A DNA stretch of 64,000 nt from Microvirga sp. TS319. GTDB lineage: Bacteria; Pseudomonadota; Alphaproteobacteria; Rhizobiales; Beijerinckiaceae. The stretch spans positions 727,501 to 791,500 of the forward strand of contig NZ_JBGGGT010000001.1 in the NCBI RefSeq assembly GCF_041276405.1. The letters are read 5' to 3'. A program made the position numbers and the translations under genes. Shown here piece by piece: positions 13,864 through 44,522 of the stretch. Position 1 is the first letter of the stretch; each line of letters begins with the position of its first letter. The notes under the pieces are model-generated. The model made no database searches. It saw only the letters and a program-made list of their open reading frames with translations, and had not been told where the DNA came from.

Positions 13864-14514
13864 ATGATCCGACGCCTGATTCTCGGCGCTCTCTTGAGCG
13901 CTTCGCTTTCTGCCTGCCAGACCGCTCAGCAGCCTTCCGTACCCGTGGAGGCGGCGGCGGACGACTATGCGGCTTGGTACATCGGCTCCATGCCCGACAA
14001 GCCGTTCGACGTTCCGCTTGTCGACCGCAGACGGATGGATGCGAAATACGCCAAGCAGACAGTGACCTATGAAGGTCCCGAGAAACCCGGCTCCATCGTG
14101 GTCGATATCGACGAGCGTATGCTCTACCTCGTGCAGCCAGACAGGACGGCGATTCGCTACGGCGTCGGCGTCGGCAAGCAGGGCTTTTCCTGGAAGGGCA
14201 TGGCGTCCGTCGGGCGCAAGGGCGTATGGCCCGCCTGGTCGCCCACCAAGACCATGGTCGGCATCAAGCCCGATCTTCCGCGATTCCGCGAAGCCGGTCT
14301 CGACAATCCGCTCGGCGCCCGCGCCCTCTACCTCTATCAGGATGGCCGGGACATTCTCTTCCGCATCCACGGGACGAACGAGCCCTGGAGCATCGGCGAG
14401 CAGGTCTCCTCCGGCTGCGTACGCATGCTCAACGAGGACATCGTGGATCTTTACGAGCGCGTTCCCGTCGGAGCGACCGTCTATGTCAAGCGCAACGGGC
14501 GCTACCGGGTATGA
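13864..14514 (+). CDS. L,D-transpeptidase (YkuD family) lipoprotein
   Basis: The protein has 216 residues. The N-terminus MIRRLILGALLSASLSAC has a lipobox (LSAC, C18), so the protein should be anchored to a membrane in the periplasm. The YkuD catalytic motif is HGTNEPWSIGEQVSSGCVRM (H169, C185), the active-site histidine and cysteine of L,D-transpeptidases. These enzymes make 3-3 peptidoglycan cross-links or attach proteins to peptidoglycan. Catalytic residues are complete. The gene ends in a strong intrinsic terminator, which supports a single-gene unit. Confidence 0.93.
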   Translation: MIRRLILGALLSASLSACQTAQQPSVPVEAAADDYAAWYIGSMPDKPFDVPLVDRRRMDAKYAKQTVTYEGPEKPGSIVVDIDERMLYLVQPDRTAIRYGVGVGKQGFSWKGMASVGRKGVWPAWSPTKTMVGIKPDLPRFREAGLDNPLGARALYLYQDGRDILFRIHGTNEPWSIGEQVSSGCVRMLNEDIVDLYERVPVGATVYVKRNGRYRV

Positions 14515-30474: not shown

Positions 30475-30593
30475 CGTCGTGCGAAAAAGGGGACCCGGTT
30501 TTTCGCAGCAAACGATGCGCTGTTCTATAGAGGGAGCATCGGGTGCGATCCCAAAAGTGCAAATGCTCTTCCCGCGTCCGATGCTCTAGAGCC
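30475..30593. repeat. Family A interspersed repeat, copy 4
   Basis: CGTCGTGCGAAAAAGGGGAC, CCGGTTTTTCGCAGC, GATGCGCTGTTCTATAGAGG, GAGCATCGGGTGCGATCCCA and final GTCCGATGCTCTAGAGC. Both modules of the family are present. Confidence 0.75.
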
Positions 30594-33189: not shown

Positions 33190-33298
33190 GGAAGTGAAAA
33201 GTGGAATCCACGTTTGGGATTTCCTCCGATGCTCCCTTCCTGGAAAGAGCGCATCGTTCTTGCGAAAAACCAGCTCCACTTTCTCGCATGATGCGCTG
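33190..33298. repeat. Family A interspersed repeat, copy 6
   Basis: GAAGTGAAAAGTGGAATCCA, CGTTTGGGATTTCCTCCGAT, GCTCCCTTCCTGGAAAGAGC, GCATCGTTCTTGCG and TTCTCGCATGATGCGCT. It lies between the convergent glycosyltransferase and UPF0126 genes. Confidence 0.75.
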
Positions 33299-33413: not shown

Positions 33414-34058
33414 TCAGCGCTTTATCTCGTCCCGTGTCCGACCTGGCCGGGGGCGATAGCGCGGTAGAGACCAATCCCAGCGGAGTGCCGCTGCCCGGAT
33501 CACGAATGCAGTCAGGAATCCGCTGGTCAGTGCGAACTCGCGCGTGGTCCCCGCCAGCGCCAAGGCAACGAAGATCGCCGCTCCGGCCAGGGCGGCGGAT
33601 GCATAGATCTCGCGGCTGAGAATGACCGGGCTTTCGCCACCGAGGACATCCCTGACGACCCCCCCGAAGGTCGCCGTGATCACGCCCATCGCGACGGCGA
33701 CGATAGGGCTGGCCTCGGCGAGCAGCGCCTTCTCGGCGCCGGTTACCGCGAACAGTGCCATGCCGATTGCGTCGAACCAGAGGAGAAGCTTGAGCCGGGA
33801 CTGCGGAATGTGGGCAAGAAAGAACGCGGCGCACGAAACCAGCACGCAGGTCACCAGATAGGCCGGTTCCTTTACCCAGAAGACCGGAAGCGCGTTGATG
33901 AGCGTGTCGCGGATCGTCCCCCCGCCAATTCCGGTCGCCGTGCCGAGCAGCACGAAGCCAACCAGGTCCATTTGCTTGCGTGAGGCGACCAGGGCCCCCG
34001 TGGTTGCAAACACGATGACCCCGAACCAGTCGAGCAAGGCGGCAAAGGTATCGAACAT
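33414..34058 (-). CDS. UPF0126/TRIC-like membrane protein (glycine transporter family)
   Basis: From ATG 34058 the protein has 214 residues (a GTG at 34073 adds five). It is built from two copies of a three-helix unit. First copy: FGVIVFATTGALVASRKQMD and GFVLLGTATGIGGGTIRDTL. Second copy: FDAIGMALFAVTGAEKALLA and GVITATFGGVVRDVLGGESP, with the conserved GGGxxRD and GGVVRD turns. E. coli members YadS and YicG have been linked to glycine transport, and the fold is that of TRIC channels. It is the third gene behind a glycine riboswitch, 28 bases after the class B penicillin-binding protein, so glycine import or export is a well-motivated guess. Direction is unknown. Confidence 0.88.
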   Translation of the reverse strand: MFDTFAALLDWFGVIVFATTGALVASRKQMDLVGFVLLGTATGIGGGTIRDTLINALPVFWVKEPAYLVTCVLVSCAAFFLAHIPQSRLKLLLWFDAIGMALFAVTGAEKALLAEASPIVAVAMGVITATFGGVVRDVLGGESPVILSREIYASAALAGAAIFVALALAGTTREFALTSGFLTAFVIRAAALRWDWSLPRYRPRPGRTRDEIKR

Positions 34059-34086
34059 CTCTCTCGTTTCCACTAGAAGGGGCAGG

Positions 34087-35724
34087 TCATTGGGCGATGA
34101 CCGTCTCGGGACGGATCCCCAGTAACGGCAGGATCTCGCCCATGACCTGCCGTGTCACCGGCACGGCGTTCCACCCGGAGGTTCGGAAGCCGAAGGTTTC
34201 CGGCAGGCCGCGCGGCTCGTCCAGGATCGTCAGGAACAAGTAGCGCGGTGCGTCGATGGGGGCGACGCCGACAAAAAAGGTCATGACCTTATCCTTGGAA
34301 TAGATCCCGCGGACAACCTTTTCGGAAGTTCCCGTCTTGCCGCCGATCCGGATCGGATCGAGGGCAGCACGACGGGCAGATCCGGCTTCGACATTCAGGC
34401 GCATCAGGTCCCGGATGGCTTTGACGGTTGCGGGTTTGATGACGTCCCTGGCGCGAAGGCGGGCCTCAAGGCCATGGTCCGCGAGGAAGGTGGGGGTGAT
34501 CAGATCGCCGCCGTTGACAAGGGCGGCCACGGCCATGGCGCTCTGGAGCGGAGTCACCGCGATGCCGTGCCCGAACGCGACGGTCGCGGTCGTGACGTCG
34601 CTCCATCGCGATGGCACGATGGGCGCGGAGCTCTCGGCGAGTTCCGTCCGGACCTTGTCGAACTGCCCTAGCGTCATCAGGAACGACCGGAGCCTCTTTG
34701 CGCCGATGGTCAGCGCCATGCGGCTCATGGCAATGTTCGATGAGTAGATGAAGCTCTCGGGCAGTGTCAGGACCCGTTTCTTCCCGCGGAAATCGTCGAT
34801 GGCAGCGCCGCCGACGGCAAGCGGCCGGCTGACGTCGAAGGTGGAACCGAGCGTGAACAGCCCGGTCTCCAAGGCCAGTGCGGTCGTCAGGGCCTTGTAG
34901 ATCGATCCCATCTCGTAGCGGCCTACCTGCATTCGGTTGATGCGATCGGATTGCAGCGCCAGACCGGGCTCGTTCGGATCGAAGTCGGGCAGCGACACAA
35001 GGGCGATCACCTCTCCGTTCGTGACGTCGAGGACGAGCCCGGCGGCGGCAATGGCCCCATACGTTTCCACAGCAAGGCGAAGGCGCTCGGCGTAGAGATG
35101 CTGGATCCGGAGGTCGATGCTGAGGCGAACGGGCTGAGCGTCGGGTTCTGCCCCCGCCCGGACGGAGGTCGGTTCATGCATTGCCATCGTGGCATCGATC
35201 CATTTCTCGATGCCCGCAAGGCCCCGGTTGTCGATATCGACCGCCCCAAGGACATGCGCGGCCGCCGCCCCATTGGGATAGACCCGCGTCGGCTCGTGCC
35301 GGAGGTGGATGCCTGCAAGACCGAGGGACCAGACGCGGTCGGCCATCGAGGGCGGAATCGAGCGTTTGATCCAGGCGAAGCCCGACCCCGACGTGAATTT
35401 CCGGCGGAGGTCGTGCGGGTCGAGATCGCCGAACACCTCGACCAATCCCTCGACTGCCTCATCCACATCGATAATCCGCCGGGGTTCCGCGTAGACCGAG
35501 AAGGCCTTCAGCTCCTTGGCGAGCAGGACGCCGTTTCGGTCGACGATGTCGGGCCGTGCCCGCTGGATCAGGTCCGGAGAGGCCGCCCGCGGCTCGGCAG
35601 GGTCTAGGCCGAACGCAACGAGCCTCATCGCAAGTGCGGCGAACAGGCCGATAAACCCGATGGCGGCCAGCCGGATGCGGGCAGGCGTCCGCTCGAATGC
35701 GAGCGTGAACAGAGGCTGTGCCAT
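34087..35724 (-). CDS. FtsI-like class B penicillin-binding protein (D,D-transpeptidase)
   Basis: The protein has 545 residues. One N-terminal membrane helix (LAAIGFIGLFAALAMRLVAF) is followed by the dimerisation domain with RPDIVDRNGVLLAKELKAFS and the transpeptidase. Active-site motifs are SIYK (S274-K277, usually STFK in FtsI), SSN (328-330) and KTGT (463-466), so it should be active. It is similar to alphaproteobacterial FtsI throughout but lies outside any division-gene cluster, so it is probably a second copy. It starts 14 bases after the class A gene and is cotranscribed with it behind the glycine riboswitch. Role proposed: septal or side-wall cross-linking when glycine alters stem peptides. 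Confidence 0.9.
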   Translation of the reverse strand: MAQPLFTLAFERTPARIRLAAIGFIGLFAALAMRLVAFGLDPAEPRAASPDLIQRARPDIVDRNGVLLAKELKAFSVYAEPRRIIDVDEAVEGLVEVFGDLDPHDLRRKFTSGSGFAWIKRSIPPSMADRVWSLGLAGIHLRHEPTRVYPNGAAAAHVLGAVDIDNRGLAGIEKWIDATMAMHEPTSVRAGAEPDAQPVRLSIDLRIQHLYAERLRLAVETYGAIAAAGLVLDVTNGEVIALVSLPDFDPNEPGLALQSDRINRMQVGRYEMGSIYKALTTALALETGLFTLGSTFDVSRPLAVGGAAIDDFRGKKRVLTLPESFIYSSNIAMSRMALTIGAKRLRSFLMTLGQFDKVRTELAESSAPIVPSRWSDVTTATVAFGHGIAVTPLQSAMAVAALVNGGDLITPTFLADHGLEARLRARDVIKPATVKAIRDLMRLNVEAGSARRAALDPIRIGGKTGTSEKVVRGIYSKDKVMTFFVGVAPIDAPRYLFLTILDEPRGLPETFGFRTSGWNAVPVTRQVMGEILPLLGIRPETVIAQ

Positions 35725-35738
35725 CGCGTCGCCCCGTC

Positions 35739-38165
35739 TCAGCGGAAATAGATGGGGCCGGAAGGGGCGTAAGCCTCTCGTGCCGGGAGATCGGCCGGGT
35801 CCCGGTCGGCGACCGGAGGAAGTTCCGCAGTCGGAGGCTCGGTGCCGGGCTTGAACGCCTCCAGGATCGAGCCCTTGTCGGGAGTGCTGCGTTTTCCGGT
35901 GAAGGGATCGACAGCAATCAGCTTGATGCCGGGCGGAACCCGGAAGGCGCTTCGCGGCCTGTCCGCAAGCGCGCGCTTCAGGAAGGCACGGGCGATGGGC
36001 GCGGCATATGCTGCTCCGTAGGCGGACCTGCCCAGAGAGCGCGGACGGTCGTAGCCGAGGTACACGCCGACTGCCAGCTCCGGCGTGGAGCCGACGAACC
36101 AGAGATCCTTGGCATCGTTCGTCGTGCCGGTCTTGCCGGCAAGGGGCCGGCCAAATCCGGAGAACACCCGCGGCAGCGTGCGCTCGACGACACCCTCCAG
36201 CAGGGAGGTCACCTGATAGGCGGTCAACGGATCGATGATCTGCTCTGCCCTATCCGACAGCCTGGGGACATCCTGGTTGCGCCAGGAGGAGGCGGAACAG
36301 GCTGGGCATCTCCTCCGGTCGTGCCGGAAGATCGTCTTTCCGTGTCGGTCCTGGATGTGATCGATCAGGGTCGGCCGGATGTAGCGGCCGCCGTTGACGA
36401 ACATGGCATAGGCGGACGTCATGCGCAGCACCGTCGTCTCGCCGGCTCCGAGCGCCATCGCGAGCAACGGCGGCAGATCGTCCTGGACACCCAGACGCCG
36501 CGCATAATCGGCAACGAGCGGCATCCCGACGTCGCGGGCCAGCCGGACGGTCATCACGTTCTTGGACCGCTCCAGCCCGATGCGGAGGGTGGTTGGGCCG
36601 TCGTAGCGGCCGTTGTGGTTGCTCGGGGACCACGGCGCCTGTCCAGGGCCTTGGGCGATGGACAGCGGGGCGTCGAGAATCAGGCTGGAGGGCGTGTAGC
36701 CGCTGTCCAGCGCGGCCGCATAGACGACCGCCTTGAAGGTCGAGCCGGGCTGGCGCCAAGCCTGCGTGACCCGGTTGAACTCGTTCTGGCTGAACGAGAA
36801 GCCCCCGACCATCGCGCGGATCCGGCCGGTGTCCGGCTCCAGCGCGACCAGGGCTCCGGAGATTTCGGGCACCTGCCGCAGCCGGTACTCGTCGGATGCC
36901 TTCCCGATCGGCTCGACATGGACGACGTCGCCGACCCGCAGGATGTCGTTCACGCGGCTCCGGCGCGTCCATCGAATGCCCTGAACCGTGATCCGTCCCG
37001 TGCGGCGGGCAGCTTCCACGGCGCCGCCGGCGTCCCGGTCAGGCCGCAGGCCGATGCGGGCGCTCTTGGCGTCGACCGCGAGCACGACGGCCTGCCGCCA
37101 GGGCCGGATGTCCTCGAACGCGGGCAGTTGGGCGAGCCTCACGCCCCAGTCGCCGTCGATGGCGGCAAGGTGCGTCTCGGCTCCGCGCCAGCCCCGGGTC
37201 TCGTCGAAGCGGGTCAGACCGTCGACGAGGCTCTTGCGGGCCGCGGCCTGCATCTTGGGATCGAGCGTTGTGCGGACCGAAAGGCCGCCCTCGTAGAGCG
37301 TCGCCTCGCCGTAGCGGTTGGCGAGTTCGCGCCGGACCTCCTCGGCAAAGTAACCGGCCTGCGACTCGGGCGGCGAGACCGGACGCGGATTGACGACGAG
37401 CGCCTTCGCCATCGACTCGGCGGCCTCGTGTGCCTCGATGGAGCCGTTGGCGGCCATCCGCTTCAGGACCCAGTTGCGGCGAGCCACCGCCGCCTCGGGC
37501 TGGCGGAAAGGGTGATAGTTGTTCGGCCCCTTGGGCAGAGCAGCGAGATAGGCGGCTTCGGCGAGGTTCAGCTCGTGCACGGACTTGTTGAAGTAGCCCA
37601 ACGCGGCCGCCGCGATGCCGTAATGGCCCATGCCGAAGTAGATCTCGTTGAGATAGAGTTCGAGGATGCGGTTCTTGCCGAACGTCTCCTCGATCCTGAA
37701 GGCGAGGAGAAGCTCCTTGATCTTGCGGATGTAGGTCTGTTCGCGCGACAGGAGCAGGTTCTTGGCGACCTGCTGGGTGATCGTCGAGGCACCCTGCAAG
37801 CGGTCAGAACCGCTGGAAAGATTGGCCAGCACGGCACGGCCGATGCCCCTGGGATCGATGCCGTTGTGATCGTAGAAATTCTGGTCCTCGGCGGCCAGGA
37901 AGGCGGCGGTGATCCGTTGCGGCACCATCGAGAGGGGAAGATACAACCGGTTCTCACGCGCATATTCCGCAATGATGCGCCCGTCGGCGGCATGCAGCCG
38001 CGTCGTCATCGCGGGCTCGTAGCGCGCGAGCTCTGCGTGATCGGGCAGATCGGCGGAGACATGCCAGAGCAGAATTCCCACGGCCAGCGAACCGCTGACC
38101 AGAACAAGGGAAGCCAAGGCCGTTGCAAAGCCGAAGAAGCGAAGAACGAAGCGCATCGCGAGCAT
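35739..38165 (-). CDS. mrcA: Class A penicillin-binding protein, PBP1A type
   Basis: The protein has 808 residues and is bifunctional. A membrane helix at about 10-35 is followed by the GT51 glycosyltransferase domain with catalytic E93 in AAEDQNFYDHNG and QGASTITQQVAKNLLLSREQ. A central OB-like insert contains KSARIGLRPDR and GDVVHVEPIG. The transpeptidase domain has STFK (GSTFKAVVY), SKN (LERSKNVMTV) and KTGTTND. Near residue 620 there is an unusual RRRCPACSASSW segment whose two cysteines might pair. It is the first gene behind the glycine riboswitch. ATG 38165 is used here; ATG 38156 is possible and neither has a strong ribosome site. It may be an auxiliary rather than the sole PBP1A. Confidence 0.92.
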   Translation of the reverse strand: MLAMRFVLRFFGFATALASLVLVSGSLAVGILLWHVSADLPDHAELARYEPAMTTRLHAADGRIIAEYARENRLYLPLSMVPQRITAAFLAAEDQNFYDHNGIDPRGIGRAVLANLSSGSDRLQGASTITQQVAKNLLLSREQTYIRKIKELLLAFRIEETFGKNRILELYLNEIYFGMGHYGIAAAALGYFNKSVHELNLAEAAYLAALPKGPNNYHPFRQPEAAVARRNWVLKRMAANGSIEAHEAAESMAKALVVNPRPVSPPESQAGYFAEEVRRELANRYGEATLYEGGLSVRTTLDPKMQAAARKSLVDGLTRFDETRGWRGAETHLAAIDGDWGVRLAQLPAFEDIRPWRQAVVLAVDAKSARIGLRPDRDAGGAVEAARRTGRITVQGIRWTRRSRVNDILRVGDVVHVEPIGKASDEYRLRQVPEISGALVALEPDTGRIRAMVGGFSFSQNEFNRVTQAWRQPGSTFKAVVYAAALDSGYTPSSLILDAPLSIAQGPGQAPWSPSNHNGRYDGPTTLRIGLERSKNVMTVRLARDVGMPLVADYARRLGVQDDLPPLLAMALGAGETTVLRMTSAYAMFVNGGRYIRPTLIDHIQDRHGKTIFRHDRRRCPACSASSWRNQDVPRLSDRAEQIIDPLTAYQVTSLLEGVVERTLPRVFSGFGRPLAGKTGTTNDAKDLWFVGSTPELAVGVYLGYDRPRSLGRSAYGAAYAAPIARAFLKRALADRPRSAFRVPPGIKLIAVDPFTGKRSTPDKGSILEAFKPGTEPPTAELPPVADRDPADLPAREAYAPSGPIYFR

Positions 38166-38368
38166 CCGAAATTCATGCGGGTGCGTACGCTGACGCGACG
38201 GACCCGTTCACTGGCGGTGAATGACAAAGGGATCGTTTCGCCACATACGGTCATGCGGCGGCTCACTCGAACGGACAGCCGCGCTCATTCCCACGTCACG
38301 CGAGAGGCGAAGCGCGTCGGGGAGGCCGGAGCCGGACGTTCAGGAATGAGACGTGGCGTGTCGGTTGT

Positions 38369-38461
38369 TCAGGGGCGTGGGATCGTGCCGCGTCGGGTTC
38401 TTCCCCGGCGGTCGCGGCGAAGGGAATGCATCACGGCTTGCGGATATTCAGAGAAGGGCAT
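38369..38461 (-). CDS. Possible 30-residue leader ORF behind the glycine riboswitch
   Basis: ATG 38461 opens a frame MPFSEYPQAVMHSLRRDRRG that ends with TGA at 38369-38371. GGAG lies eight bases before the ATG, inside the 3' arm of a stem (GGAGCC with GGCTCC) that begins right after the second aptamer. This is the position where a riboswitch would hide a ribosome site. The peptide is basic and matches no family I know. It may be a leader peptide, or the relic of a lost first gene. Confidence 0.35.
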   Translation of the reverse strand: MPFSEYPQAVMHSLRRDRRGRTRRGTIPRP

Positions 38462-38467
38462 GCGTCA

Positions 38468-38507
38468 GGCTCCATCGATGGCCCGCAGGCGAACCTGCGG
38501 CGGAGCC
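38468..38507 (-). promoter_or_regulatory. Expression-platform stem of the glycine riboswitch
   Basis: The outer GGCTCC and GGAGCC pair, enclosing a perfect CCGCAGG-TTCG-CCTGCGG hairpin. The 3' arm contains the GGAG that precedes the short ORF. No T-run follows, so control of translation is more likely than termination. Confidence 0.5.
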
Positions 38508-38509
38508 CC

Positions 38510-38690
38510 CTCTGTCGTTAGCCTGAGAGTTTCGTCGCGATGCGCAGGGCAGCCGCGACTTTCACCGTGGGCGGGAGCAGCCGCTCCACTTTTCAGAGTG
38601 TCGAGCAACGAAGCGGTCCTGGGTGCCTGAGAGTTTCCGGGGCGGTTGCTCCTTCGGCGGCCAGCAGGCTGGCTCTCTCCCGCTCATTGA
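38510..38690 (-). promoter_or_regulatory. Tandem glycine riboswitch upstream of the PBP operon
   Basis: Read on the minus strand, aptamer 1 (38690-38605) has GAGCGGGAGAG, GCCGAAGGAGCAACC, AAACTCTCAGGC and GGACCGCTT, with GAGCGG closing against CCGCTT. Aptamer 2 (about 38603-38510) has ACTCTGAAAAG, a GGAGC/GCTCC hairpin, GCCCACGGTGAAAG, GAAACTCTCAGGC and GACAGAG, with CTCTG closing against CAGAG. Both have the diagnostic ACTCTCAGGC block. Aptamer 1 fits the consensus fully. Aptamer 2 has lost GAGAG (now AAAAG) and GAA (now CAC) in the core. The next annotated gene downstream is the class A penicillin-binding protein, not gcvT. Confidence 0.88.
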
Positions 38691-38699
38691 TAAGGTCAA

Positions 38700-39158: not shown

Positions 39159-39550
39159 CGCATCGTGCAAGAAAGCGGACCCGGTTTATCGCCAGAACCA
39201 TGCGCTCATCTAAGAAGGGAGCATCGTGCGAGAAAGTGGACCCGGTTCTTCGCAAGAACGATGCGCTTTTCTATAAGAGGAGCATCAAATTGATCCCAAA
39301 AGTGGAGTCCACTTTCGGGTCCGATGCTCTAGCGCATCGTTCGGACCCGGCGGGCCGCGCTCGCGAACAGGGGACCCGGTTTTCACGGACGCGGCCCTTC
39401 GGGGCCGCTCGAACGATGCGCTGCTCTAGTCTATAGCCTTGAGCATCTTTTCACGCAAAACCGGTTCCCACTTTTGCGTTCGAGGCTCTGGGAGGGAGCA
39501 TCGGATTCACTCCCAAAAGTGGACTCCACTTTTCACGTCAGATGCTCTAG
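39155..39550. repeat. Pile-up of family A repeats, copy 7
   Basis: About 400 bases consist of at least four joined modules. CTAGCGCATCGTGC appears at 39155, GGAGCATCGTGCGAG near 39222, CTAGCGCATCGTTCGG near 39330 and CTCTAGTCTATAGCC near 39423, with three copies of the AAAAGTGG/CCACTTTT dyad. The module CGCGGCCCTTCGGGGCCGC matches that of copies 1 and 5. The rest of the gap to 39684 holds no gene. Confidence 0.85.
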
Positions 39551-39683: not shown

Positions 39684-41633
39684 TCAAGTCGAGTGACCAG
39701 TGGCTTCCTTCACCCGGTTGACCAGACCACCACGAAGCACGGCGTCCACCTGCCGGGATGACATGGAGTGGTGAACACGATAACTCCGGCTTCGTGTCAC
39801 GTTTTCGGCGATAAGCTCATTGCCCATGACCAGGGAACGGTGCAAATCGATCAGGCGCAGTACATCTCCCATCTGGATGTCGTCATAATCGGCGGCGTCA
39901 CCGAAGGTCAGCGGCAACACTCCAAAATTGATCAGGTTCTGCGAATGAATGCGTGCGAAACTCTTGGCAAAGACCGCGCGCAGACCAAGGAATCTCGGCC
40001 CGAGAGCGGCGTGCTCACGGCTTGAGCCTTGGCCATAGTTATCTCCACCCACGATAATGTGGCCCGGCACCTGCTTCGCGCGCGCGACATAGCTCGGATC
40101 AACCCCCTCGAACGAAAACTCTGCTATCTTGGGAATGTTGCTCCTGAACGGCAGGACGCGATTCCCCGCAGGCATGATCTCGTCTGTCGAGATATCGTCT
40201 GCCACTTTGAGCAGAACGGGAACTTCCAATGAATCGGGCAACGACTCGGAAGGAGGCAAGGAGACGATATTGGGTCCTTTGCGCAGGGCAACCCGCAGCG
40301 CAGCTTCAGGCGCCAAGGGTGCGAGGAATGCCTCACGGTTAACGATGGGGTCGTCGGGATCTGCGATCCGTAAGTAAGGAATGCCCAACGTTCGTGGATC
40401 CGTGATCACGCCGGTCAGGGCGGACGCGGTGGCCGTCTCAGGGCTTACCAAACACACCTTGTCTTCCCGAGTGCCGGAACGGCCGGGGAAGTTGCGGGGC
40501 ACCGTTCTCAGAGATAGCTCGTGTGTCGCAGGAGCCTGCCCCATCCCGATGCAGCCGTTACACCCTGCCTGATGCAGTCGCGCTCCCGCATGAATGAGAT
40601 CTGCGACATGGCCGTCGCGCACCAAGGTCTCCAACTGCGCCCGGGACGTGGGATTGACGTCGAACGAAACGCGATCATGAACACGCCGTCCGCGCACCAT
40701 CGTGGCGGAAACGGCAAAGTCGCGGAAACCGGGATTGGCCGAAGAGCCGACATAGGCCTGGTAGATGGGCTGACCCGCGACCTCGCGAACGGGCCGCACG
40801 TTCCCTGGGCTCGATGGCATGGCAATCAAAGGCTCCAGGCTCGAGAGATCGATCTCATCGTGCAAGTCGTATCCCGCTCCCGGATCCGCAGTAAGTTCGA
40901 CCCAATCGTTCTCCCTCTTCCAGGCACGCAGGAAACGACGAACCTCCGGATCGGAAGGGAATACCGTGGTGGTCGCCCCGAGCTCTGCGCCCATGTTGGC
41001 GATGACATGTCGATCCATCGCGCTCAGCGTACCGAGGCCGGATCCATAATACTCGACGATGCGCCCAAGTCCGCCGGCCACGCCATGACGACGCAACATC
41101 TCAAGAATGATATCCTTGGCGCTCACCCATTCCGGCAGCGCGCCTGTGAGCTCAACACCCCAGATTTCCGGCATGCGTGTGAAGAACGGTTCTCCTGCCA
41201 TGGCTAACGCCACTTCGATGCCTCCGGCACCAATGGCCAACATGCCCAGCGCGCCGGCCGCCGGCGTGTGACTGTCGGAACCAAGCAAAGTCTTTCCTGG
41301 CTTGCCGAAGTTCTCCTGATGACAGGGGTGGCTCACCCCGTTTCCAGGCCTGGAATACCACACGCCAAATCGCTGGCATGCGCTCAGAAGAAAAAGATGG
41401 TCATCAGGGTTTTTGTAGTCCGCTTGGATCAGGTTGTGGTCGACGTACTGAACACTGACCTCAGTCTTCACACGATCAAGCCCCAGTGCCTCTAGCTCGA
41501 GCATGACCATTGTGCCAGTGGCGTCCTGGGTCAGAGTTTGATCGATGTGAATTCCTATCTCCTCACCAGGCGTCATCTCGCCAGAGACAAGGTGCGAGTG
41601 AATGAGCTTTTGCGCAACGCTCCAAGGCATCAT
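39684..41633 (-). CDS. Aconitase-family hydratase (short, about 650-residue form)
   Basis: The protein has 649 residues. It has the aconitase N-terminal fold with IHIDQTLTQDATGTMVMLEL, YVDHNLIQ, and TLLGSDSHTPAAGALGMLAI, and the C-terminal swivel domain with VGGDNYGQGSSREHAALGPR, the substrate-binding serine loop. Two iron-sulfur ligands are visible in GCNGCIGMG. The place where aconitases have SCTN reads GSSANPGFRDF, so the third cysteine is absent. It belongs to the short putative aconitase group, and whether it hydrates citrate, isocitrate or another acid is not certain. It is downstream of maoC and phaC on the same strand. Confidence 0.85.
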   Translation of the reverse strand: MMPWSVAQKLIHSHLVSGEMTPGEEIGIHIDQTLTQDATGTMVMLELEALGLDRVKTEVSVQYVDHNLIQADYKNPDDHLFLLSACQRFGVWYSRPGNGVSHPCHQENFGKPGKTLLGSDSHTPAAGALGMLAIGAGGIEVALAMAGEPFFTRMPEIWGVELTGALPEWVSAKDIILEMLRRHGVAGGLGRIVEYYGSGLGTLSAMDRHVIANMGAELGATTTVFPSDPEVRRFLRAWKRENDWVELTADPGAGYDLHDEIDLSSLEPLIAMPSSPGNVRPVREVAGQPIYQAYVGSSANPGFRDFAVSATMVRGRRVHDRVSFDVNPTSRAQLETLVRDGHVADLIHAGARLHQAGCNGCIGMGQAPATHELSLRTVPRNFPGRSGTREDKVCLVSPETATASALTGVITDPRTLGIPYLRIADPDDPIVNREAFLAPLAPEAALRVALRKGPNIVSLPPSESLPDSLEVPVLLKVADDISTDEIMPAGNRVLPFRSNIPKIAEFSFEGVDPSYVARAKQVPGHIIVGGDNYGQGSSREHAALGPRFLGLRAVFAKSFARIHSQNLINFGVLPLTFGDAADYDDIQMGDVLRLIDLHRSLVMGNELIAENVTRSRSYRVHHSMSSRQVDAVLRGGLVNRVKEATGHST

Positions 41634-41881
41634 CGCTCCTCCCTTGTGGAACGGCAGACATTGGCATGCGCCGGTCGGTCACTCGCAGTTTGCAGGCTGA
41701 GTAACGAGACACTTTCAAGGATTTGCCTCCTGCCCTTTGCAGGCCTGCGGAACTATCAACGGATCAGCGCAGCTTCCGTCATTTGCGATCAATTGGGTCC
41801 ATTTCATAAATCCCCCGAACGACGCACCCGACCAGAAATGCGGTTTCTTTTCATAATGACCATGTCTGGTCTTCCCCTGAA

Positions 41882-42379
41882 CTACTCCCGGACGTGATGC
41901 CCCTCCGTGTCAAGTGAAACGGCAGGTAAGATTACCCGTTCCCGCGCCACCTTCTCCACAGGGGCAATGACATCTGCAACGCCCTCGATCACAACCTCTC
42001 CACGCTGGTTGAGGGCCGTGCATTCAAGACTGACGCGATGATCATGGTCGCTCTTCTGCGCCACCTTAACAATCACGCTGACGGTGTCGTCGAGGATGAC
42101 CGGCTTTCGAAAGTAAAGGGTCTGAGCGAGATAGATGGTTCCAGGTCCCGGTAGCTTGGTACCGAGGACAGTCGAGATCAGGGCACCGCCCCACATGCCA
42201 TGGGCAACCACTCTGTGAAACATGTCGCTCTTAGCGAATTCCGGATCGACATGCGCCGGATTGATGTCGCCTGACATGACGGCGAAAAGCTCGATGTCTT
42301 TGAAAGTCAACGTACGGGTGATGCTGGCTGTGTCGCCAATCCGCAGCTCATCGAACGTTCTGTTTTCAATCATGCTCAT
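41882..42379 (-). CDS. MaoC-like (R)-enoyl-CoA hydratase
   Basis: The protein has 165 residues with a hot-dog fold. The hydratase motif is FAVMSGDINPAHVDPEFAKS (catalytic D and H in DINPAHVD, about residues 38-45), followed by HGMWGGALISTVLGTKLPGP. Members of the PhaJ group convert enoyl-CoA to (R)-3-hydroxyacyl-CoA, the direct substrate of PHA synthase. It starts 54 bases after the PHA synthase stop codon, so supply of PHA monomer is the natural role. The following aconitase-like gene is 248 bases further and may have its own promoter. Confidence 0.9.
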   Translation of the reverse strand: MSMIENRTFDELRIGDTASITRTLTFKDIELFAVMSGDINPAHVDPEFAKSDMFHRVVAHGMWGGALISTVLGTKLPGPGTIYLAQTLYFRKPVILDDTVSVIVKVAQKSDHDHRVSLECTALNQRGEVVIEGVADVIAPVEKVARERVILPAVSLDTEGHHVRE

Positions 42380-42433
42380 GAGCGGTTCTCCGAGACAATC
42401 CTCTCCCGGATTCTGCGGCGGGCGTGCCTGTCG

Positions 42434-44365
42434 TCAAGATTCAAAAACGTATCGGCCGGGCGCGTCTTCAAGCGGTGGTCCGCCCTTCTCGGGTATTCCG
42501 AATGGGGGAGGCTGACCATGTCCATGCGATTGTCTATCCAACCAAGAACTCCAGGCCGGCCACCACGATCCATTATGCAACTCGGTTTGCGCATACCAGG
42601 TCTCAGGGTCGACATATTGGGCAGCCGCAGGATGATGAGAGATCCGATAGCGCCTTCCCTGGTGCCCGGGCTCGCTCACAATTCCCGCGTTGTGGCCTCC
42701 GCTGGTCAAGACGAAGGTCACGTCCGTGTCCTCGACCAGATTGATCTTGTAGACGGAACGCCATGGCGCAACATGGTCCCTCTCGGTCGCAACCGAAAAG
42801 ATCGGGAGGCGGATGTCGCCAAGTGCGACCGGGCGCCCGGCCACATCGTAGCGGCCCTCGAACAGATCGTTTCTAAGAAAGAACCGACGCAGATACTCGC
42901 TGTGCATGCGATAAGGCATGCGGGTGCTGTCGGCGTTCCAGGCCATCAAATCGGTCATAGCCGGACGCTGTCCAAGCAGGTATTCCTGCACCACCTGAGA
43001 CCAGATGAGATCGTTGGAGCGCAGAAGCTGAAACGCGCCCGCCATCTGCCGTGTGTCGAGATAACCTTGATCCCACATGATGTCCTCGATGTAGCTGAGT
43101 TGGCTGTCATCGATGAACAGAGATAACTCGCCGGCATCGGTGAAATCGACCTGAGCCGCCAGCAGCGTGATCGAATTCAGGATATTCGTTCGCTTGCGCG
43201 CCAGATATGCCGCGGCGATCGCAAGCAGTGTCCCGCCGAGGCAGTAACCGACGGCGTTGACTTTCGCATCGGGCGCAATTGCCTCGATCACCTTCAGGGC
43301 GTCGAGTATGCCATGCGTGAGATAATCATTGATTTCGAGATCACGATCCTCAATCGTTGGATTGTGCCATGAGATCATGAACACCGTATGCCCGGCTTCG
43401 ACGAGATATCTGACAAGGGAGTTCCCCGGCGACAGATCGAGAATGTAATACTTCATGATCCACGCGGGCACTATGAGGATCGGCTCCTTTCGAACCCGAC
43501 GGGTCATTGGTGCGTACTGAAGGAGTTCGATAAGCCGGTTTCGGTAGATGACTTTGCCTTTTGTCGCTGCGACCTGGTCACCCGGTCGGAAATCCTCAGT
43601 CCCAACGGGCGGCTTTCTGCCAACGATATGCTCCCAGTCCGCCCAAAAATTCATTGCGCCACGGAGAAGGTTCTGGCCGCCTTCGTGGAAGGTCGCCGAG
43701 AGGACATTGGGATTCGTTGCGACGAAGTTGACGGGCGAGACGGCATCAAGCAGCTGGCGCGTCATGAACGAGACAACCTGCTCGTGGTGTGGCGAGACAC
43801 CCGGGATCCCTGTCGTGGCGTCGTGCCACCACCGTTGATTCAACAGAAAGGCTTGAGAGATCAGGTTGAACGGGGGCTGCCGCCAGGCCCCGCTTCGGAA
43901 GCGACGGTCTTGCGGCAGTTGTTCAATACAAAGGGGGCATTCAGTGTTGAAAGTGACGTGGAAGGCGTAATGTAGGAACCGGAAGGTGTCGCTGAAACGC
44001 TTTTCTGCAAGTTGCTGATGCTTGCCCGGCGATACCCACAGATGAATGGCCCAGTCGGCATAGGCGAGGCAGAGTGCTGCGGGCGAGAGCCCAAGGGTAA
44101 AGCGCCCCATGGTGGCGTGAATCAACCGATCGACGCTCGTCGGGGCGCTGACTTCGGTTGGAGCTAAAGGCGGACCGAGTTGTCCCGCCTTGCTTTTCTT
44201 GACATCTGCATTGTCATGCTCCGGCGAAGCATGAGGCGATCCTTGTAACCAAAAGAGGAACGGATTCGATGCTGCTGCGGTAGGCCAACCGAATGGCGCG
44301 CCAATTGACGTCGACGGAGCGCTGGTGGAATTTGCATTGCCGGGTGGAAGAGCTGCGCGAGCCAT
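42434..44365 (-). CDS. phaC: Poly(3-hydroxyalkanoate) synthase
   Basis: The protein has 643 residues from ATG 44365; a GTG at 44371 adds two. The lipase-like box is GYCLGG with the catalytic cysteine at about residue 375. The histidine is in TSGGHNAGIV, and the aspartate is in ERDHVAPW. The conserved core WIMKYYILDLSPGNSLVRYL and FMISWHNP is typical of class I synthases. A disordered, Ser/Pro-rich N-terminal stretch of about 75 residues is longer than usual. It polymerises hydroxyacyl-CoA into storage granules. With the MaoC gene it forms a small PHA unit. No phaA, phaB or phasin is near, so it is probably an additional synthase. Confidence 0.92.
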   Translation of the reverse strand: MARAALPPGNANSTSAPSTSIGAPFGWPTAAASNPFLFWLQGSPHASPEHDNADVKKSKAGQLGPPLAPTEVSAPTSVDRLIHATMGRFTLGLSPAALCLAYADWAIHLWVSPGKHQQLAEKRFSDTFRFLHYAFHVTFNTECPLCIEQLPQDRRFRSGAWRQPPFNLISQAFLLNQRWWHDATTGIPGVSPHHEQVVSFMTRQLLDAVSPVNFVATNPNVLSATFHEGGQNLLRGAMNFWADWEHIVGRKPPVGTEDFRPGDQVAATKGKVIYRNRLIELLQYAPMTRRVRKEPILIVPAWIMKYYILDLSPGNSLVRYLVEAGHTVFMISWHNPTIEDRDLEINDYLTHGILDALKVIEAIAPDAKVNAVGYCLGGTLLAIAAAYLARKRTNILNSITLLAAQVDFTDAGELSLFIDDSQLSYIEDIMWDQGYLDTRQMAGAFQLLRSNDLIWSQVVQEYLLGQRPAMTDLMAWNADSTRMPYRMHSEYLRRFFLRNDLFEGRYDVAGRPVALGDIRLPIFSVATERDHVAPWRSVYKINLVEDTDVTFVLTSGGHNAGIVSEPGHQGRRYRISHHPAAAQYVDPETWYAQTELHNGSWWPAWSSWLDRQSHGHGQPPPFGIPEKGGPPLEDAPGRYVFES

Positions 44366-44522
44366 TGGCACTGCCGACCTATCCAGAGGGCCCTCTTAAC
44401 CTAGAACTGCTTCCATTTGCGGGGAATCATCTCTCTTCATGGGCCCGCCCGCCTTTTTGACGGTGAACCGGATCCGCTTCACCGAAAGTGGCTCTAACGA
44501 AGCAATATCGTCGTTTCGCAGA

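Follow-up and report, generated by a model that had tools for sequence, protein, structure and literature searches.

A branch of tandem glycine riboswitches heads genes for peptidoglycan cross-linking enzymes, often together with a gene of the UPF0126 family, and probably turns these genes on as glycine rises. One member lies in the window, a 64,000-nucleotide stretch of the Microvirga sp. TS319 genome (contig NZ_JBGGGT010000001.1, positions 727,501 to 791,500), where a tandem riboswitch heads genes for an accessory class A penicillin-binding protein (PBP) related to PBP1a, an accessory class B PBP of the FtsI type and a UPF0126 protein (Table 1). The roles described for glycine riboswitches lie in the control of glycine breakdown, of glycine transport and of serine metabolism (PMC3766115, PMC6944388, PMC12452182; statements taken from papers cited by PMC number refer to the portions of those papers that were available), and in the present case a familiar riboswitch family heads targets of a new kind and has its own lineage. 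The argument is drawn from sequence: the riboswitches, the gene order behind them, their linkage across genomes, their common branch and a stretch able to form a helix over the Shine-Dalgarno element and start codon.

Table 1. Riboswitch, predicted platform and genes of the window operon (window coordinates)
Feature	Position	Strand	Remarks
Glycine riboswitch aptamer 1 (RF00504, consensus core)	38604..38692	-	57.6 bits; 91% mean pairwise identity, 9 Microvirga leaders
Glycine riboswitch aptamer 2 (RF00504)	38502..38606	-	41.7 bits
Predicted expression-platform helix, GGCTCC (38507-38502) with GGAGCC (38473-38468), hairpin enclosed	38468..38507	-	25-copy consensus fold
Predicted 30-codon leader open reading frame (ORF), beginning at the platform start codon	38369..38461	-	
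Accessory class A PBP (PBP1a paralogue)	35739..38165	-	Transgly, PCB_OB and Transpeptidase domains
Accessory class B PBP, FtsI-type	34087..35724	-	PBP_dimer and Transpeptidase domains
UPF0126 / PF03458 'Gly_transporter' family protein	33414..34073	-	Pfam match

An initial annotation of the window had placed a tandem glycine riboswitch at 38510-38690 on the minus strand, upstream of the three genes. The covariance-model match to RF00504 spans 38502-38692, with both aptamers above the gathering score of 32, and the two adjoining aptamers are followed by one predicted platform, as expected of a tandem riboswitch. The aptamers overlap by three bases; cmscan keeps the better of overlapping matches, and aptamer 2 was scored on the cut region. 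Pfam domains bear out the names given to the three products, and the genes lie on the same strand. Of the two intergenic gaps reported earlier, the first (14 bases) stands, and the second is either 13 or 28 bases depending on whether UPF0126 starts at GTG 34073 or ATG 34058. The PBP1a frame is annotated from 38165, while its relatives conserve a start at 38156, leaving 336-345 bases of leader between riboswitch and gene. The genome holding the window, in two contigs, is designated G000; the remaining G codes denote genomes compared with it, and the L codes denote loci.

The first gene product carries PF00912, PF17092 and PF00905, scores 593 bits against TIGR02074 (cut-off 508.75) and retains the catalytic motifs STFK (475), SKN (534) and KTG (678) as well as EDxxFxxH. 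With the housekeeping PBP1a of G000 it shares 59% identity, and with 15 Microvirga housekeeping copies 58-62%. Its nearest database records, ten at 77-84% identity, are all from Microvirga, and the next do not exceed 58%. In a PBP1a tree built from 12 of the 13 accessory, 15 of the 48 housekeeping and 16 of the 17 outside sequences (the broken copy of G019 and L086 were omitted), the accessory rows form one branch (SH-aLRT 100) on a long stem beside the housekeeping rows of Microvirga. Because of this placement the accessory PBP1a looks like an old duplicate that evolved separately, although it may also have come from a source outside the sampled genera. Thirteen sites differ in a fixed manner between accessory and housekeeping copies, with most outsiders matching the housekeeping state; eight of these fall in the transpeptidase part, including GT to TL at 663-664, a pattern that is suggestive only.

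The class B PBP (PF03717 and PF00905) is 50% identical to the nearest other class B PBP of G000, the FtsI-type L108. It scores 166 bits against the curated FtsI model PRK15105, below the cut-off of 737, as does the housekeeping L108 (196 bits); the label FtsI-type is used because this is its best match among class B PBPs, the curated cut-off not being reached. The third product contains two PF03458 units (160 bits) and is the sole UPF0126 protein found in G000. In 11 bacteria UPF0126 proteins are important for glycine use (PMC12173739, citing others), and at the level of the family the protein may be taken as a glycine mover. A core UPF0126 gene, 47-51% identical to that of the window, is present in 37 of 48 Microvirga genomes and missing from G000. 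Among these 48 genomes the accessory form (at least 85% identity) occurs in 9 of the 11 without a full-length core copy and in 6 of the 37 with one (Fisher p = 0.0001, phylogeny ignored), as if the accessory gene could replace the core gene.

Linkage of riboswitch and wall genes recurs through part of the genus. The accessory PBP1a is found in 13 of the 48 genomes (broken in G019), and 12 of these carry a same-strand riboswitch upstream of it; in the thirteenth, G027 (M. lupini), an N-run covers the riboswitch place and the block normally found behind the riboswitch is still there. None of the 48 positions of housekeeping PBP1a lies within 20 kb of a riboswitch among the matches listed. Ten genomes hold 11 copies of a single L,D-transpeptidase class (the query itself, or proteins 77-82% identical to it), and every copy stands about 0.2-0.3 kb behind a separate glycine riboswitch. 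L,D-transpeptidases also belong to the riboswitch-linked wall set, beyond the three genes first noted. PF03734 (YkuD) is found in those of L048, L047, L186, L187 and L188, and the motif HGT...SSGC(I/V)R was read in the linked enzymes. The two kinds of locus can be contiguous: G009, G017 and G035 show the order riboswitch, PBP1a, FtsI-type PBP, UPF0126, riboswitch, L,D-transpeptidase (the FtsI-type PBP of G009 is a fragment only), and in Microvirga sp. VF16 both wall loci are on one plasmid (NZ_CP069359.1). In G004 and G007 a gene for a Pal-type lipoprotein stands between riboswitch and PBP1a, the G004 copy scoring above the TIGR02802 cut-off.

Altogether, 80 riboswitch places are present in the 48 genomes among the matches listed; nine weaker RF00504 matches lie beyond these, in per-genome numbers that fit second aptamers of the listed places. 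Thirty-one places were judged unrelated to gcv: 12 head PBP1a, 11 L,D-transpeptidase and 4 dadA, and the single cases are UPF0126 (G033), a PBP1a remnant (G062), an orphan near transposase-like genes (G001) and a degenerate copy (G064). A gcv link was seen at 26 of the other 49 (25 genomes), and the remaining 23 were counted as gcv by assumption. The linkage counts reject a chance neighbourhood of riboswitch and wall genes.

Several further observations concern these loci. The window also holds, at 13864-14514 on the plus strand, a YkuD-type L,D-transpeptidase gene without a riboswitch match; it is 53% identical to a class found directly upstream of the riboswitch in seven genomes (G003, G004, G007, G018, G019, G036, G062). 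In M. subterranea (L062:6185-6572) the two aptamers start 281 bases apart, with an N-run and a repeated piece of aptamer 2 between them, which is probably an assembly fault. In M. massiliensis a terC RNA (RF03067; L063:4052-4112, plus strand) lies about 1.7 kb upstream of the glycine riboswitch.

Searches beyond the genus used R1, a covariance model built on aptamer 2 and the platform. Across 199 family genomes it scored 14 places outside Microvirga at more than 65 bits, every one of them heading dadA; of four weaker places inspected, three were gcv and one dadA. In 397 genomes of the order, 42 places were recovered at E <= 1e-7: the window's own, 4 with wall genes, 12 with dadA and 25 with gcv or gcv-like genes (among the last, L193 was called from sequence only, no gcvT being called there, and L198 from the gcvP gene behind). 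The wall copies are therefore rare, and the four occur in single genomes of four other families, with wall-gene domains confirmed by Pfam. The riboswitch of G523 heads an L,D-transpeptidase gene. In G362 and G436 it heads an L,D-transpeptidase gene followed by UPF0126, whose products (75% and 68% identical to that of the window) are well above the Microvirga core copies in identity. In G470 it heads a class A PBP and an FtsI-type PBP. The class A PBP of G470 shares 49% identity with another G000 paralogue but only 33-37% with the window PBP1a; being nearer to another paralogue, it indicates that the kind of gene is kept though the gene itself is not, and that wall synthases have become linked to this riboswitch branch more than once. 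No further wall copy appeared at E <= 1e-10 among 8 genomes of the G362 family and 10 of the G436 family, the sole other match, in G489, heading dadA. Conservation of the operon with its PBP1a through the whole order was considered and rejected, since flank scans found the riboswitch at 9 of 10 Microvirga records (the tenth has an N-run) and at 0 of 17 PBP1a relatives outside the genus. Conserved linkage in relatives, which the initial annotation had named as a check, exists in part of Microvirga and in four other families and is missing around the outside relatives of PBP1a.

The same loci bear on a different explanation, in which the UPF0126 transporter is the real riboswitch target and the PBPs ride along in its operon. 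Transporters are already known as glycine-riboswitch targets, the PBP clusters seen end with UPF0126 (G007 excepted), G033 keeps a riboswitch followed by UPF0126 after loss of the PBPs, and the commoner occurrence of the accessory UPF0126 in genomes without a full-length core copy, described above, points the same way. Yet no UPF0126 gene is present in the stretch analysed behind the riboswitch at the L,D-transpeptidase loci of G034, G067, G006 (C149) and G523 or at the PBP pair of G470, and in G007, where the Pal-type gene and PBP1a follow the riboswitch, the only UPF0126 noted is a distant one (38%) on the opposite strand. We consider this explanation unlikely and read the cross-linking genes as targets of the branch.

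In a tree of 64 riboswitches the 29 wall-linked copies form one branch (95/95), nested in a larger branch with 19 dadA-linked riboswitches (100/99) and separate from 14 gcv-linked ones; a first tree of 59 rows agrees in setting the wall riboswitches apart from gcv and allying them with dadA. The dadA copies are not one group, since two of them (G020, G025) group with gcv, and many inner forks are weak. Twenty-five of 27 Microvirga wall copies are in the alignment and both trees (x_G064 and the PBP1a-linked copy of G068, which has an N-run, were dropped); dao_G000, a single aptamer, was dropped from both trees, and L155, L012, L030 and L164 from the second. The name dadA is given by NCBIfam for three proteins (L009, L139, L088), and the others are 57-68% matches to L009. 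The dadA links recur in the order, and these riboswitches are the closest kin of the wall riboswitches. The initial annotation had raised, as an alternative, a riboswitch left behind when a gcv operon moved. This is rejected: gcvT and gcvH of G000 keep their own tandem riboswitch in place (G000:C1:688736), and the wall copies are a separate branch. G000 has three glycine-riboswitch places, heading gcvT and gcvH, the window operon and dadA; at the last (L009, G000:C1:2044791-2044896) one matched aptamer lies directly before the gene for a D-amino acid dehydrogenase (NF009074).

A conserved block behind the aptamers can pair GGCUCC with GGAGCC over a GGAG element, with a start codon 5-8 bases further on; the GGAG would be the Shine-Dalgarno element, masked by the predicted helix. 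Across nine leaders the aptamers and the next 50 bases are 85-91% identical, against 53-63% in the remaining leader, and the start codon is present in all 25 aligned Microvirga copies (24 ATG, 1 GTG). The helix is nearly invariant inside Microvirga, so that covariation is uninformative there. Compensatory variants are found in dadA-linked copies (GGCGUUC:GAACGCC, GGCAUUC:GAAUGCC and GGUGCU:AGCACC), where 29 of 40 reach six of seven pairs, with single-sequence shuffle values that are often not small. What the platform start opens differs among loci. The ORF that follows it at Microvirga wall loci is generally 25-37 codons long, apart from two of 5 and 10 codons. At G470, G523 and G362 it opens ORFs of 9, 5 and 4 codons as read from the sequence, and at G436 a GTG is in frame with the L,D-transpeptidase. 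A conserved leader peptide was considered and rejected, as the peptides differ and the frame shifts. Because the platform start opens dadA or apparently an L,D-transpeptidase at some loci and a leader ORF elsewhere, the arrangement suggests a switch acting on translation, of the enzyme in some loci and of the leader ORF in others.

The direction of the switch was examined in the other-family copies. In three of four, CCUCUG, complementary to the P1 strand CAGAGG, lies directly 5' of the Shine-Dalgarno element, and it pairs with that strand in the computed ligand-free fold. Stabilization of P1 by glycine would end this pairing, and an ON switch is favoured. At the platform, none of the Microvirga leaders tested (13 of the PBP/UPF0126 type and 11 of the L,D-transpeptidase type) has CCUCUG, nor do three gcv leaders, and the window leader has UCUCUG 55 bases further on, within the leader ORF; for this reason the direction in Microvirga would follow by analogy with the other-family copies only.

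The position of the wall branch beside dadA also admits a relic or hitch-hiking RNA from an older dadA-type gene, the wall genes using a promoter in the leader instead. Such a history would suit a Microvirga platform start that opens only a short ORF, the poorly conserved leader behind it, the pair lost from aptamer 2 and the orphan riboswitch near transposase-like genes in G001. A relic would not be expected to hold aptamers and platform at 85-91% identity while the leader behind falls to 53-63%, nor to keep its link in two separate gene classes and four other families, in one of which the start codon of the L,D-transpeptidase apparently lies at the platform. We regard this history as improbable, slightly more so than the transporter explanation, and favour a riboswitch branch that still controls its wall genes. 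That the branch senses another small amino acid, such as D-alanine or sarcosine, is very improbable: the GCCCA of aptamer 2 and the dadA-linked kin, which encode a D-amino acid dehydrogenase, would allow it, but the aptamer 1 core is consensus, GCCGA is kept in aptamer 2 of the four other-family wall copies and the linked transporter family is tied to glycine use (PMC12173739).

The data presented above have led us to propose a model for a glycine-responsive wall operon. Binding of glycine to the aptamers would open the platform helix, and the ribosome site thus exposed would, in the window, initiate the 30-codon leader ORF. Translation of this ORF, probably through protection of the transcript from Rho, would let transcription continue into PBP1a, the FtsI-type PBP and UPF0126. 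At G436 the platform start codon would apparently be that of the L,D-transpeptidase itself. Protection from Rho may bridge the roughly 300 bases of leader, an idea that fits the mildly C-rich leaders and nothing more (C/G of 1.16-1.40 in all nine leaders; background mean 1.02, 95th percentile 1.28). Glycine would replace D-alanine in stem peptides and cross-linking would fall, and the cell would answer with spare cross-linkers, while UPF0126 would move glycine. In Caulobacter crescentus, stems take glycine at position five even at sub-millimolar glycine, and high glycine lowers cross-linking (PMC3585186). The Rhizobiales lack the Rod complex and polar growth of Agrobacterium requires PBP1a (PMC8546619), and the order is rich in L,D-cross-links, with L,D-transpeptidation seemingly essential in Agrobacterium (PMC11527210). 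Since the order does without the Rod complex and depends on PBP1a and L,D-transpeptidases, the linked genes are spare copies of its main cross-linkers. The accessory enzymes might, at a guess, tolerate stems altered by glycine.

A number of points weigh against this model. Glycine binding and the response of expression are both deduced from sequence features. Aptamer 2 has a GCCCA core in all 25 aligned Microvirga wall copies where the Rfam consensus and all four other-family wall copies have GCCGA, and is short of one pair beside the GCC:GGC helix. The masking helix of the L,D-transpeptidase type has five pairs only, and the pairing script chose another partner in 6 of 11 copies. The leader peptide is not conserved across Microvirga wall loci, the CCUCUG element is missing from the Microvirga platforms, and the evidence for Rho is the mild excess of C over G. 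No intrinsic terminator was found in the leader scan, and a promoter may lie inside the long, poorly conserved leader; a sigma-70 pattern scan gave no match in the leader or upstream of the riboswitch, a weak test in a GC-rich genome. The riboswitch is absent from the scanned flanks of all 17 outside PBP1a relatives. Thirty-five of the 48 Microvirga genomes lack the extra PBP1a, and decayed copies occur in five (G001, G009, G019, G062, G064), so the riboswitched wall set is dispensable. Glycine is reported to lower the expression of uptake genes that its riboswitches control (PMC6944388), which sits badly with an ON switch heading an importer, and C. crescentus shows no obvious growth defect on glycine-rich stems (PMC3585186). 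With these points included, the initial interpretation as a whole is partly supported. A bolder form, on which we are evenly divided, is that the riboswitch branch serves as a sensor of wall damage by glycine that has repeatedly captured unrelated cross-linkers and a glycine channel to provide a substitute, glycine-tolerant set. The captures would comprise class A PBPs of two kinds, FtsI-type PBPs, L,D-transpeptidases and Pal, and in Microvirga the switch would operate by way of translating the very short leader ORF.

Known systems resemble this one in part. The RF00504 riboswitch of the gcv operon, present here before gcvT and gcvH (L008), has the same aptamer family, the tandem layout and the P1 strand GACAGAG, but differs in tree branch, in the sequence behind the aptamers and in heading glycine breakdown rather than wall targets. 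The dadA riboswitches (NF009074) are the nearest relatives and have the same kind of helix over the ribosome site, and in 6 of 14 family loci the platform start codon is itself the first codon of the dadA frame; they differ in heading one oxidising enzyme directly, without a leader ORF or wall gene. A transporter under a glycine riboswitch is known from the Streptococcus pyogenes sodium:alanine symporter (PMC5829553) and from a surveyed transporter class (PMC6944388), where the transporter gene is the target and uptake is reported to be lowered by glycine, whereas here UPF0126 stands behind cross-linkers. PBP1a, PBP3 and L,D-transpeptidases of Agrobacterium polar growth are the same enzyme classes, with no riboswitch mentioned in the available portions of PMC8546619 and PMC11527210; here they are extra copies beside a housekeeping set. 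Surveyed targets comprise glycine metabolism, glycine transport and serine metabolism (PMC3766115) or, in another survey, gcv, transport, other glycine metabolism and 'Other' (PMC6944388). PBP1a, the FtsI-type PBP and L,D-transpeptidase lie outside the regulon classes given in the available part of PMC3766115, into which UPF0126 alone could fit. The word 'penicillin' is absent from the main text of PMC6944388, PMC3766115 and PMC12452182. Among the open-licence papers listed in literature searches, judged by titles and abstract openings, none describes a wall-gene glycine riboswitch.

The surroundings of the operon have features of their own. On the minus strand at 39684-44371 lie aconitase-like, MaoC-like and PHA-synthase-like ORFs, named from reading their translations, whose third-position G+C is 0.65-0.66 against 0.76-0.90 in nearly all called neighbours, as if they were of foreign origin. 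A short repeat like GAACCGGGTCCACTTTCT occurs at 30484-30501, 33267-33284, 39170-39187 and 39231-39248, flanking the operon on both sides; with four copies at no more than three mismatches, where chance would give 0.05, it looks like an intergenic repeat family.

If a branch of glycine riboswitches governs wall synthases, peptidoglycan cross-linking would be connected to an RNA that senses a metabolite. Such a branch would also offer a physiological reason for bacteria to sense glycine, namely its entry into stem peptides. Since paired PBP1a copies occur in one cell, one riboswitched and the other not, the glycine tolerance of wall enzymes becomes directly testable.

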